Part shown: one piece after another, positions 36,731 through 42,295 of the stretch
Numbering within the stretch: the first letter of the stretch is position 1
Layout of the letters: each line of letters opens with the position of its first letter
DNA from: an uncultured beta proteobacterium
Lineage (GTDB): Bacteria > Pseudomonadota > Gammaproteobacteria > Burkholderiales > Burkholderiaceae_C
NCBI GenBank assembly: GCA_903823025.1
Contig: CAIJRK010000044.1
Location: forward strand, 1 to 64,000
DNA length: 64,000 nucleotides
Reading direction: 5' to 3'
Program-made: the position numbers and the translations under genes
The notes under the pieces: generated by a model
The model's database searches: none
Told to the model about the DNA's origin: nothing
The model's input: the letters and a program-made list of their open reading frames with translations, nothing else

Positions 36731-39466
36731 CTACAAGTTAGGAGCCAGCAAGCGTTGCAAGGCTTGCTGATCCATGTGCCGCCGGGCAGCCAAGTCTTTC
36801 ACCTGGTCGTCACTGATTTTCCCAACACTGAAGTAGGTGCTATCAGGATGGCCCAGATAAAAACCGCTGACGCTCGCCGCTGGCGTCATCGCCAAACTCT
36901 CGGTCACGCCCATGCCGATGTCCTCGCATTGCAGTAGTTCAAACATCTCTTTCTTGACGCTGTGATCCGGGCAAGCCGGGTAGCCAGGGGCCGGGCGAAT
37001 GCCTTTGTATTTTTCGGCAATCAGCTCATCCGGGGCCAGCATCTCTTGCGCCGCATAACCCCACAAATCGGTGCGAACGCGGTGGTGCAAGTACTCGGCA
37101 AAGGCTTCGGCCAGCCGGTCGGCCAGCGACTTGAACAGGATGGCGGAGTAGTCATCGAGTTCATCGGCAAAGATTTTTTCCCGTTTCTCAACGCCCAAGC
37201 CTGCCGTCACCGCGAACACGCCCGCGTAGTCTGCGGCCACGCCTTTGGGCGCGACAAAGTCGGCCAGACAGCGGCTTGGGCGCATCACGCCGTCGATGAC
37301 TTGTTTCTCGGTTTGCTGGCGCAGGCCGTGCCAGGTGAGTGCGACTTCGGTGCGGGTTTCGTCCGTATAAAACTCGATGTCGTCATCGTTCACGGTGTTG
37401 GCTGGATACAAACCAATCACAGCATTGGCGGTGAGCCAGCGGCCTTCAATCAGTTTTTTAAGCATCTGCTGGCCATCCGCAAACACCCGTGAGGCCTCGA
37501 CGCCCACCACCTCATCTTTCAGAATAGCGGGGTACGGCCCAGCCAAGTCCCACGTTTGAAAGAACGGACCCCAGTCGATGAAACGGGCCAACTCGGTCAG
37601 GTCAAAGTTCTTGAAAACGCGACGGCCTAAAAACTTTGGCGGCGTGGGCGTGTAGTGCGTCCAGTCCACCGGCGTTTTATTGGCGCGGGCTTTGGCTAAC
37701 GGCCACATCGGTGTCTGCTTTTTGTTGGCGTGCTGGTGGCGCACGCGCTCGTAGTCGGCGTTGAGTTCGTCAATGTAGGCAGACGCTTGATCGCCCAACA
37801 GGCTTTGCGCCACGCCTACGCTGCGCGAGGCATCGGGCACATAAACCACCGGGCCGTCGTAGTGGTGCGCAATCTTGACGGCCGTGTGGACGCGCGAGGT
37901 GGTGGCGCCGCCAATGAGCAGCGGAATTTTTTTGAGGCGAAAGTGGTCGTCCTTTTGCATCTCGGCGGCCACGTATTGCATCTCTTCAAGACTGGGCGTG
38001 ATCAGGCCGGACAGGCCCACAATGTCGGCACCCTCGGCTTTGGCGCGAGCCAAAATTTCGTGCGCGGGCACCATCACGCCCATGTTGATGACGTCAAAGT
38101 TATTGCATTGCAGCACCACGGTGACGATGTTTTTACCGATGTCATGCACATCGCCTTTGACGGTGGCAATGATGATCTTGCCCTTGGTGCGCACATCGCG
38201 CCCGGCGGCTTCATCCAACCGTTTTTCTTCTTCAATGTAGGGAATCAAATGCGCCACGGCCTGCTTCATGACCCGGGCGCTTTTCACCACTTGTGGCAAA
38301 AACATTTTGCCCTGACCAAACAAATCGCCGACGATGCTCATGCCCGCCATCAACGGGCCTTCAATCACGTGCAACGGACGACCGCCCTTGGCGAGAATGC
38401 CTTGGTAAGCCTCTTCGGTGTCCGCCACGATGAAGTCGGTGACGCCGTGAACCATGGCGTGACTCAGGCGTTGATCGACGGTGGCGGGATGTTCCGCCGT
38501 GCCGCGCCATTCCAGCTTTTTGCTCTCGTCTTTGGCCGCGCCTTTGGCGTTTTCGGCAATCTCGACCAAGCGTTCTCCGGCATCAGGTCGGCGGTTCAGC
38601 ACCACGTCTTCGACCCGCTCGCGCAACTCGGGTTCCAGGTCGTCATAGACGCCCATCATGCCGGCGTTGACGATGCCCATGTCCATGCCCGCTTGAATGG
38701 CGTGGTACAAAAACACGGTGTGAATCGCCTCGCGCACCGGGTCGTTGCCCCGGAACGAAAAGCTCACGTTCGACACGCCGCCCGACACCTTGGCGCCCGG
38801 CAGGTTTTGCTTGATCCAGCGCGTGGCGTTGATGAAATCGACGGCGTAGTTGTTGTGCTCTTCAATGCCGGTGGCAATGGCAAAAATGTTGGGGTCAAAG
38901 ATGATGTCTTCGGGCGGAAAGTCCACCTCGTCCACCAGAATGCGATAGGCCCGCTCGCAAATCCCGATCTTGCGTTCGTAGGTGTCGGCCTGACCTTGTT
39001 CGTCAAACGCCATCACCACCGCTGCCGCGCCATAACGGCGAACCAGTTTGGCTTGCTGCTTGAATTGCGCCAAGCCTTCTTTCATGCTGATGGAGTTCAC
39101 GATGCCCTTGCCCTGCACACAGCGCAGCCCGGCTTCGATGACGCTCCATTTGCTCGAATCAATCATGATGGGCACGCGGGAAATATCAGGCTCGGACGCG
39201 ATCAGGTTCAAAAATCGCACCATGGCGGCTTGGCTGTCGAGCATCGCCTCGTCCATGTTGATGTCGATAATTTGCGCGCCGTTTTCGACTTGCTGACGCG
39301 CCACAGCCAGCGCTTTTTCAAACTCGCCGTTCAAGATCATGCGGGCAAACGCTTTGGAACCCGTCACGTTGGTGCGTTCACCAATATTGACGAACAACGA
39401 CTTAGCGTCGATATTGACCGGCTCCAGGCCGGATAACTTCAAGGGGGGAACAATAATTTCAGACAT
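36731..39466 (-). CDS. metH: methionine synthase, cobalamin-dependent, C-terminal polypeptide
   Basis: 911 residues starting [11 protein letters not shown]. Domains in order: methyltetrahydrofolate-binding pterin domain (about 20-290, [11 protein letters not shown] and [10 protein letters not shown]), cobalamin-binding cap and Rossmann domains (about 320-560; cobalt-ligating histidine in GDVHDIGKN, near residue 438) and the S-adenosylmethionine-dependent reactivation domain (about 580-900; [12 protein letters not shown]). The homocysteine-binding domain is a separate gene at 41249, so the enzyme is split in two polypeptides. An SAH riboswitch precedes the gene. AGGTGAG near the ATG is the ribosome binding site. 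Confidence 0.95.
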
Positions 39467-39470
39467 GCAT

Positions 39471-39502
39471 CTCACCTGTAGATTTGAAAAAAAGCAGGTG
39501 AG
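39471..39502 (-). promoter_or_regulatory. RBS-sequestering inverted repeat (riboswitch expression platform)
   Basis: CTCACCTG (39502-39495 on the minus strand, the last strand of the riboswitch) is perfectly complementary to CAGGTGAG (39478-39471), which contains the metH ribosome binding site 4 bases before the ATG. The 16-base loop is A/T-rich. The two arms allow a switch between ligand-bound aptamer and blocked ribosome binding site. Confidence 0.75.
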
Positions 39503-39566
39503 CGTCGTTGGGAAATCCAAGCCTGACAGGTCGTGTGACCCGCTGCAACGCTCCTTGGAAGGGTTG
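39493..39566 (-). promoter_or_regulatory. S-adenosylhomocysteine (SAH) riboswitch upstream of metH
   Basis: Read on the minus strand the leader contains, in order, AAGGAGCGTTGCAGCG, a short variable arm, CTGTCAGGCTTGG, then CCCAACGACGCTCACC. These are the conserved blocks of the SAH riboswitch (GGAGCG.TGC, CAGGCT, CAACG.CGCTCACC) found upstream of ahcY and metH genes in proteobacteria. P1 would form from GGAGCGTTG and CAACGACGCTC. Location directly ahead of a methionine synthase gene is the expected one. SAH accumulation should increase MetH production. Confidence 0.87.
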
Positions 39567-39631
39567 GATTTTAAAGGCTATGCCATTAGCCCGCTTTGGC
39601 TGTGCCAATTTGCAGAAATATTTTCAAAGTA

Positions 39632-39666: not shown

Positions 39667-39918
39667 ATGGATGCCATCACCTACTCTAGCGCCCGTGCCA
39701 ATCTCGCCAGCACGATGAATCGTGTTTGCAATGACCACGAAGCGTTGATCATTACCCGCAATGGCGATCAGTCCGTGGTGATGCTCTCGTTGGATGACTA
39801 CAACGCGCTGGCGGAGTCCGCCTACTTGCTTCGCAACCCCAGCAACGCCAAACGTCTTCTATCGGCTATCGGGCAACTGAACGCAGGTCAAGGCGTTCAG
39901 CGAGAGCTTGCCCCGTGA
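39667..39918 (+). CDS. yefM: YefM/Phd-family antitoxin
   Basis: An 83-residue antitoxin starting MDAITYSSARANLASTMNRV; TGGAGCG precedes the ATG. The N-terminal Phd/YefM DNA-binding domain includes ALIITRNGDQSVVMLSLDDYNAL, and the C-terminal helix (AKRLLSAIGQLNAG) is the YoeB-wrapping segment. The stop overlaps the toxin start by 4 bases. It neutralises YoeB and represses its own promoter. Confidence 0.93.
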   Translation: MDAITYSSARANLASTMNRVCNDHEALIITRNGDQSVVMLSLDDYNALAESAYLLRNPSNAKRLLSAIGQLNAGQGVQRELAP

Positions 39919-40169
39919 GGCTGGTCTTTGCCGACGAAGCTTGGGAAGACTATCTCTACTGGCAAAAGCAGGACAAGCGCATGGTGGAGCGCATCAACAA
40001 GTTGATTCAGGAAACGCAGCGAGAACCCTTTGCCGGGGTAGGAAAACCTGAGCCTTTAAGACACGCGCTATCGGGGTTTTGGTCACGGCGCATCACCGAG
40101 GAACACCGGATGGTTTACAGGATAGAAAGCGACGCGCTGCTGATTGCGCAGTTGCGGTATCACTACTGA
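39915..40169 (+). CDS. yoeB: YoeB-family ribosome-dependent mRNA interferase toxin
   Basis: An 84-residue RelE-superfamily toxin with a GTG start overlapping the antitoxin stop (GTGA). The family's catalytic residues appear present: glutamate in GKPEPLRH, arginine in SRRITEEHRMVYR and histidine near the C-terminus in RYHY. YoeB cleaves mRNA in the ribosomal A site. With yefM it forms a complete, apparently functional module inserted between the two metH genes. Confidence 0.93.
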   Translation: MRLVFADEAWEDYLYWQKQDKRMVERINKLIQETQREPFAGVGKPEPLRHALSGFWSRRITEEHRMVYRIESDALLIAQLRYHY

Positions 40170-40293: not shown

Positions 40294-40872
40294 ATGAATA
40301 TTTCCATTGCCAAGTACAAAAAAACTTTCTCGGGTCACACCATTCCCGCCGCATTAGAAAGTTTACTAAAATTTCAAAACCGTGTGGGCTATGAGAACTA
40401 CTCACAGGCGATCACGCTACAAGACGATGATAAGTCTGGTCTCGTTCAAGGATGGTCTGACGATCCGTTGTTCTTAGCCGCGCTAGTGCCCTTCGCCAGA
40501 GCAAATGGATCGGGGTCTTTTTACGCTCTCTGGAATAACAATGAAAGTTCTAATCTTGCGAGTTGGCCTGTTGTCGTTTTCGGAGATGAAGGTGGTGAGT
40601 GGATCGTTGCAGAAAACGTAATCTCACTTCTACAAATCTGTGCTTGCGATACAGAGCCTATGGTTGACCATGATTCTGCCATCTTCTACAAAAGTGAAGA
40701 TGACTATGAAGCTAGCGAATACATCACTGAATACAAAGCGTGGCTGAAAAGCTCGCTTCAAGTTGAACCTATCGAAACGCCAGACCAAATCGTCGAGTCA
40801 GCACAAGCAAATTTACAAGAGTCATTCAACGAATGGAAGCAACCGTTTCTTGCTCATTGGTCTAATTCTTAA
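40294..40872 (+). CDS. hypothetical protein, possibly SUKH/SMI1-KNR4-like
   Basis: A 192-residue acidic soluble protein without signal peptide. The segment SGSFYALWNNNES followed by WPVVVFGDEGGEWIVAENV resembles the core of SMI1/KNR4 (SUKH) proteins, which often act as immunity proteins against polymorphic toxins. No matching toxin gene is adjacent. The gene is clearly AT-richer than its neighbours, consistent with recent transfer. It shares the metH-interrupting island with yefM-yoeB and toxin scars. Confidence 0.6.
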   Translation: MNISIAKYKKTFSGHTIPAALESLLKFQNRVGYENYSQAITLQDDDKSGLVQGWSDDPLFLAALVPFARANGSGSFYALWNNNESSNLASWPVVVFGDEGGEWIVAENVISLLQICACDTEPMVDHDSAIFYKSEDDYEASEYITEYKAWLKSSLQVEPIETPDQIVESAQANLQESFNEWKQPFLAHWSNS

Positions 40873-40932: not shown

Positions 40933-40998
40933 CTAAACCAACTCAATCGGTCCCGAATATTTAGCCATAGTGCTATCTGCCGTGAGGCAATGCAGCGT
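40933..40998 (-). pseudogene. C-terminal scar of a PIN-domain (VapC-like) toxin
   Basis: On the minus strand one frame reads LHCLTADSTMAKYSGPIELV and then stops. LTAD followed by a small helix and a GP-hydrophobic end is the usual C-terminal strand and helix of PIN-domain toxins. The rest of the gene is missing, and the fragment overlaps the MazF scar in another frame, so a deletion may have joined two toxin genes. Confidence 0.45.
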
Positions 40999-41110
40999 TC
41001 ATGTCATCTGGCGACACTACGAGCACAGAGCGCGTCTTTTGTATTTCGCTGCCAAGCGTGAGGTCGAGGTTGACCCAATAAACTTCTCTGCGAGAGATGG
41101 CCCGATTCAC
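40973..41110 (-). pseudogene. N-terminal fragment of a MazF/PemK-family toxin
   Basis: From a GTG at 41110 the frame encodes 45 residues including SRREVYWVNLDLTLGSEIQK and TRSVLVVSPDDMN, the hallmark start of PemK/MazF mRNA interferases, then diverges and stops at 40973. A full protein would be about 110 residues. The GTG overlaps the stop of an upstream minus-strand frame ending SIADDSEWVW, in the style of a coupled antitoxin-toxin pair. The remnant antitoxin cannot be assigned to a family. Confidence 0.7.
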
Positions 41111-41248
41111 CAAACCCACTCACTGTCATCAGCAATGGACACTTCACGCCAGTCCTGCGCCTCGACCCACTCTTGAGCCAAGACCGCATCAGACGCTTGC
41201 GTTGTTGACTCACAAACCAAGCGGGCCGAAGTGTGCGTTCGATGGGCT

Positions 41249-42295
<1,047 letters not shown>

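Follow-up and report, generated by a model that had tools for sequence, protein, structure and literature searches.

An SAH riboswitch with covarying anti-Shine-Dalgarno arms precedes metH2, which encodes the cobalamin half of a split methionine synthase, as a probable translational ON switch

The metH2 leader and its aptamer

The window, by which we mean the whole 64-kb stretch of DNA analyzed here, encodes methionine synthase in two genes on the minus strand. The metH2 ORF covers positions 344-1229 of NF007024, the C-terminal three quarters of the enzyme, and 1.8 kb upstream of it lies metH1. Located divergently between them are a YefM-like antitoxin gene, whose upstream region overlaps the riboswitch DNA, and a YoeB-like small ORF (together 39670-40169, plus strand). 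A 192-aa ORF (40294-40872, plus strand), also between metH1 and metH2, had zero NCBIfam matches, and a short MazF-like fragment (40973-41119, minus strand) was recognized by eye near the toxin-antitoxin pair. The features of the locus considered below are as follows.

36731-39466, minus strand: metH2 (911 aa), which encodes the methionine synthase domains for folate, cobalamin, and activation (C-terminal part of NF007024/TIGR02082)
39471-39478, minus strand: arm CAGGUGAG with the Shine-Dalgarno sequence AGGUGA, 4 nt before the ATG (predicted 16S pairing)
39493-39562, minus strand: SAH riboswitch aptamer, RF01057 (cmscan, 59.5 bits, cut-off 37)
39495-39502, minus strand: anti-Shine-Dalgarno arm CUCACCUG, an 8/8 complement of 39478-39471 (covariation at positions 6-8)
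39500-39507, minus strand: P4 3' strand CGACGCUC, whose last three bases, CUC, are common to the anti-Shine-Dalgarno arm (sequence, pair covariation)
39516-39521, minus strand: P1 3' strand CUUGGA (cmscan structure line)
39527-39542, minus strand: P2 hairpin CGGGUC-ACAC-GACCUG (cmscan structure line)
39546-39553, minus strand: P4 (pseudoknot) 5' strand GAGCGUUG, eight pairs with 39507-39500 (pair 6 covaries)
39554-39559, minus strand: P1 5' strand UCCAAG, partner of CUUGGA at 39521-39516 (cmscan structure line)
39568-39573, minus strand: -10-like box TAAAAT (conserved), with transcription predicted to start some 7 nt further on, at the beginning of the aptamer
41249-42295, minus strand: metH1, the homocysteine-binding domain of methionine synthase (N-terminal, NF007024 positions 7-339)

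The preliminary description had recognized an SAH riboswitch upstream of metH2, and a covariance-model search of the leader with cmscan bore this out with a significant match to RF01057 at 39562-39493 (59.5 bits against a gathering cut-off of 37; E-value 8.9e-10 when 3 kb was searched and 1.9e-8 over the whole window). The match covers the model end to end (1-78) and is the sole Rfam match within the window; the SAM/SAH riboswitch, RF01727, gave none in the same Rfam scan. Every block of the conserved core, AGGAGCGNUGC ... CAGGCU ... CAACGNCGCUC, was found in the window's alignment, and the core was matched with at most two mismatches at all 181 loci collected from relatives. The pseudoknot helix GAGCGUUG/CGACGCUC, here called P4 after the published naming, joins the P1-P2 linker strand to the 3' strand. 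The window's sequence allows all eight of its pairs. Pair 6 covaries (T-A/T-G/C-G), being paired at 179 of the 181 loci against a shuffle maximum of 175. The folding energy of the whole leader was unremarkable (z -0.37); plain minimum-free-energy folding thus gives no support, as expected because the aptamer is pseudoknotted. The aptamer is predicted to bind SAH. Of the SAM-cycle genes ahcY, metF, and metH, it is the last, as metH2, that stands downstream of the element.

Of the 61 genomes from the window's genus, 57 carry elements of this class, as do 117 of the 121 taken from across the family, and two copies per genome are usual; two nearly complete genus genomes, G001 and G038, gave no match to the SAH riboswitch under strict filters. 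The 181 elements precede metH2 (92), ahcY (86), or unassigned genes (3), and none precedes metH1. The preliminary description's statement that the homocysteine-domain gene lacks the element therefore holds both in the window, where the region upstream of metH1 contains no SAH element and no Rfam match, and in general. The window's own genome has one further RF01057 copy, the ahcY leader at 1500-1674 of L002.

Complementary arms and the proposed switch

The segments CTCACCTG (39502-39495) and CAGGTGAG (39478-39471) are exact reverse complements over 8 of 8 bases, and the latter is separated from the metH2 ATG at 39466 by four bases (ATGC), so that both the pairing and the position of the ribosome-binding site were as first described. 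Pairing of the CAGGUGAG arm with the 3' end of 16S rRNA is predicted at -8.4 kcal/mol. A mini-ORF (ATG CAT GTC TGA, 39470-39459, minus strand) overlaps the metH2 start out of frame; it is probably due to chance, since the upstream ATG is absent in most relatives.

The trinucleotide CUC at 39502-39500 forms both the end of the P4 3' strand and the first three bases of the anti-Shine-Dalgarno arm, and because of this sharing P4 and the full 8-bp Shine-Dalgarno hairpin are mutually exclusive. The preliminary description had proposed a translational ON switch in which SAH stabilizes P1. The ON logic is supported by the covarying arms and opening energies given below, but the helix involved is P4: it is P4 (39553-39546/39507-39500) that the anti-Shine-Dalgarno arm overlaps, while P1 (39559-39554/39521-39516) lies outside the arm and takes no part in the competition. 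Without SAH, CUCACCUG would pair with CAGGUGAG, hiding the Shine-Dalgarno sequence and turning metH2 translation off. Binding of SAH would lock P4 and withdraw CUC from the anti-Shine-Dalgarno arm; the leftover 5-bp pairing would be weak, the Shine-Dalgarno sequence would open, and the MetH2 then made would help to recycle homocysteine from SAH to methionine.

Predicted energies are consistent with this scheme. The Shine-Dalgarno hairpin is predicted at -10.4 kcal/mol with 8 bp and at -3.3 kcal/mol with the 5 bp left once CUC is removed. For the 71 metH2 leaders in which 2-10 nt separate the arm from the ATG, we modeled the bound state as an RNA stripped of its aptamer, P4 included, whereupon the mean predicted cost of opening the Shine-Dalgarno arm fell from 10.0 to 5.0 kcal/mol. 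The fall was seen in 70 of the 71 leaders (window, 9.5 to 4.7 kcal/mol) and supports activation by SAH. In the modeled bound state the arm was on average about 0.2-0.3 unpaired, i.e., incompletely open, because ACCUG/CAGGU can persist. An alternative bound-state model that blocked the P4 strands alone was dropped, as P1 misfolded.

Conservation and covariation of the arms

In the 92 metH2 leaders from the window's genus and family, the CTCACC/GGTGAG pairing is near-universal; the exact CTCACCTG/CAGGTGAG pair occurs in 56, and in about 71 the arm and the ATG are spaced by 2-10 nt. The complementarity of the arms is far above chance: the mean best helix score of a leader's own arms was 7.52 across the 92 relatives. 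Base-shuffled partners scored 3.7, and when partners were swapped between species the mean was 7.08 with a maximum of 7.24 in 200 swaps, all 200 of which the own pairs exceeded.

The covariation check in relatives that had been suggested at the outset was likewise positive. Arm positions 1-5 are nearly invariant and hence carry no covariation signal; only positions 6-8 are informative, the others being fixed by the aptamer or by complementarity to 16S rRNA. Position 7 is T-A in 69 leaders, C-G in 6, and G-C in 4, and is paired in 80 of 87, a count matched in 0 of 1000 shuffles (mean 64, maximum 70 paired), with the proviso that the shuffles ignore relatedness and that position counts are not independent events. 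A fourth pair type, A-T, occurs in Hydrogenophaga (L255), and the presence of four pair types implies repeated change at this position. Position 8 gave a covariation result reached by 9 of 1000 shuffles, and position 6 showed a single change, C-G to T-A, in L152. Both arms have been rewritten and remain paired in three leaders: L152 (CTCACTC/GAGTGAG), L255 (CTCACCAG/CTGGTGAG), and L082 (CATCGAT/ATCGATG), the last covering the start codon. The L067 metH2 leader has about 100 nt of extra sequence between the arms, with CTCACCTG and CAGGTGAG both intact.

About 16 leaders from more distant members of the family, including L040, L106, L123, L124, L144, L149, L171, L174, and L200, have a different platform, with the GGTGAG arm 20-68 nt ahead of the metH2 ATG and often within a GGCCGCGGTGAG...GCGGCC hairpin. 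This shift of the arm, together with the hairpin, suggests that the expression platform has been rebuilt in these lineages. The ahcY leaders also keep CTCACC/GGTGAG, but there GGTGAG stands well away from the ATG, accompanied by a second, variable complement downstream (e.g., CCACGGCT/AGCCGTGG followed by TTTTTT, or CCGCTGGC/GCCAGCGG, among others); the ahcY platform looks like a three-part switch.

Alternative readings of the leader

The complementarity might be a by-product of two separate constraints, CTCAC being set by the aptamer and GGTGA by its complementarity to 16S rRNA, with the aptamer alone functional. Each side is indeed independently constrained, and arm positions 1-5 hardly vary; yet such an origin leaves unexplained both the covariation at positions 6-8, above all at position 7, and the joint rewriting of both arms in L082, L152, and L255, which includes cases away from any Shine-Dalgarno sequence. 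This reading is already disfavored by these data, and we consider it highly improbable. It is also very unlikely that control is transcriptional, with the run of seven T residues after the aptamer (39493-39487) acting as an SAH-switched intrinsic terminator. Such a terminator would fit the placement of CACCTGCTTTTTTT directly 3' of the P4 strand and the stem followed by TTTTTT in the ahcY leader of the same genome, but the run is missing in most relatives within the genus, where the arms are kept, and it forms the loop of the Shine-Dalgarno hairpin in the predicted folds. Inspection of the leader revealed no G+C-rich hairpin ending at the run, and as an element neither conserved nor joined to an adjacent hairpin it was rejected as a terminator.

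The opposite polarity, an OFF switch in which the Shine-Dalgarno sequence is hidden in the SAH-bound RNA, could appeal to the leftover ACCUG/CAGGU pairing that the bound state still allows. Against it, CUC is common to the hiding hairpin and to P4, so that ligand would weaken the hairpin; the class is described as gene-activating; and more MetH upon SAH accumulation makes metabolic sense. We regard an OFF switch as extremely unlikely. A translational ON switch at metH2 is well supported by the features of the leader, and an SAH riboswitch with its own promoter very probably controls metH2 translation in this manner.

Promoter and gene order

The TAAAAT box was found 17-20 nt ahead of AGGAGCG in 43 of 44 metH2 leaders of the genus, and 16-21 nt ahead of it in 35 of 48 other leaders of the family; its background frequency is 3e-4 per base. 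In L003 the box is kept though metH1 ends just 34 nt upstream. No -35 consensus was seen in the metH2 leaders. It appears probable that metH2 has its own promoter, both here and where metH1 is adjacent.

We compared gene order in a named set of 80 relatives, counting (i) 46 betaproteobacterial loci without the SAH element and (ii) 30 loci with it. The end of metH1 lies less than 200 nt from metH2 in 41 of the 46 loci of the former group, in which absence of the element was scored by a fuzzy motif, and a cmscan check of 13 of these loci was negative throughout. Members of this group belong mostly to Burkholderia, Paraburkholderia, Caballeronia, Cupriavidus, Oxalobacteraceae, Polynucleobacter, and Bordetella. 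Among loci with the element, mostly from Comamonadaceae and relatives such as Rhodoferax, Variovorax, Ramlibacter, and Roseateles, metH1 is within 200 nt of metH2 in just 2 of 30; in the set from the window's genus and family, it is within 200 nt of the aptamer in 11 of 92. This contrast to a large extent follows the species tree and is no test of cause. At five loci scored as lacking the element, with metH1 unlinked or unseen (L186, L188, L210, L211, and L247), permissive cmscan detected no SAH element. A cobalamin riboswitch (L257 1194-1355, minus strand; 42.9 bits) occurs near metH in a Bordetella relative lacking the SAH element.

Relation to known systems

In Comamonadaceae, metH has been described as a family-specific target of the SAH riboswitch, alongside ahcY, in the main-text passages of Leyn et al. 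(2014; PMC4239095), and the metH target of that regulon is the one found in the window. The same passages make no mention of restriction to the cobalamin half, of covarying anti-Shine-Dalgarno arms, or of a link to operon break-up. By its title, the paper that introduced the class (Wang 2008, as cited in PMC4239095) presents these riboswitches as activators of coenzyme-recycling genes. Compared with the RF01057 class (Wang et al. 2008; structure 3NPQ, from Ralstonia solanacearum), the window has the same P1, P2, and P4, a SAM-cycle target, and predicted activation; nothing essential differs, the window's Shine-Dalgarno-hiding arm being an exact 8-mer and its ligand binding predicted. RF01727 and SAM-II are likewise small translational riboswitches with related ligands, but they have another fold, and in them the ligand sequesters the ribosome-binding site (OFF), unlike the ON switch predicted here. 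A two-gene methionine synthase, metH1/metH2, with consecutive locus tags, was described in Burkholderia glumae (PMC6667456) and shows the same division between the homocysteine domain and the rest as the window. In the Burkholderia relatives examined, metH1 and metH2 are adjacent and have no SAH element, whereas in the window 1.8 kb and a toxin-antitoxin pair separate them.

In the window, then, a known element is met once more at a target already known for it, in an arrangement that is family-wide in Comamonadaceae. The relatives of MetH2 and the scans across the family put the window itself in Comamonadaceae, probably in or near Rhodoferax, a placement by protein similarity rather than a formal classification. 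The covarying arms and the link to operon break-up are modest additions; like the restriction to the cobalamin half, they are missing from the passages compared and may be new. The preliminary description had expected the two polypeptides to be regulated differently, and the one-sided placement of the element suggests that the metH1 and metH2 halves may be differently expressed. We tentatively suggest, as a possibility rather than a probability, that in Comamonadaceae and their allies the metH1-metH2 operon was broken up with the gain of a promoter and an SAH riboswitch at metH2 only; the cobalamin subunit would have become the SAH-controlled limiting partner, and the homocysteine subunit would be made independently.

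For this family, the metH2 leader provides a clean SAH riboswitch expression platform, in which the arm that would hide the Shine-Dalgarno sequence is traceable by covariation and control falls on a single subunit of an enzyme split in two. It raises the testable question of why control of a two-subunit enzyme would act through the B12 half alone, and that of how gain of the riboswitch relates to break-up of the operon.
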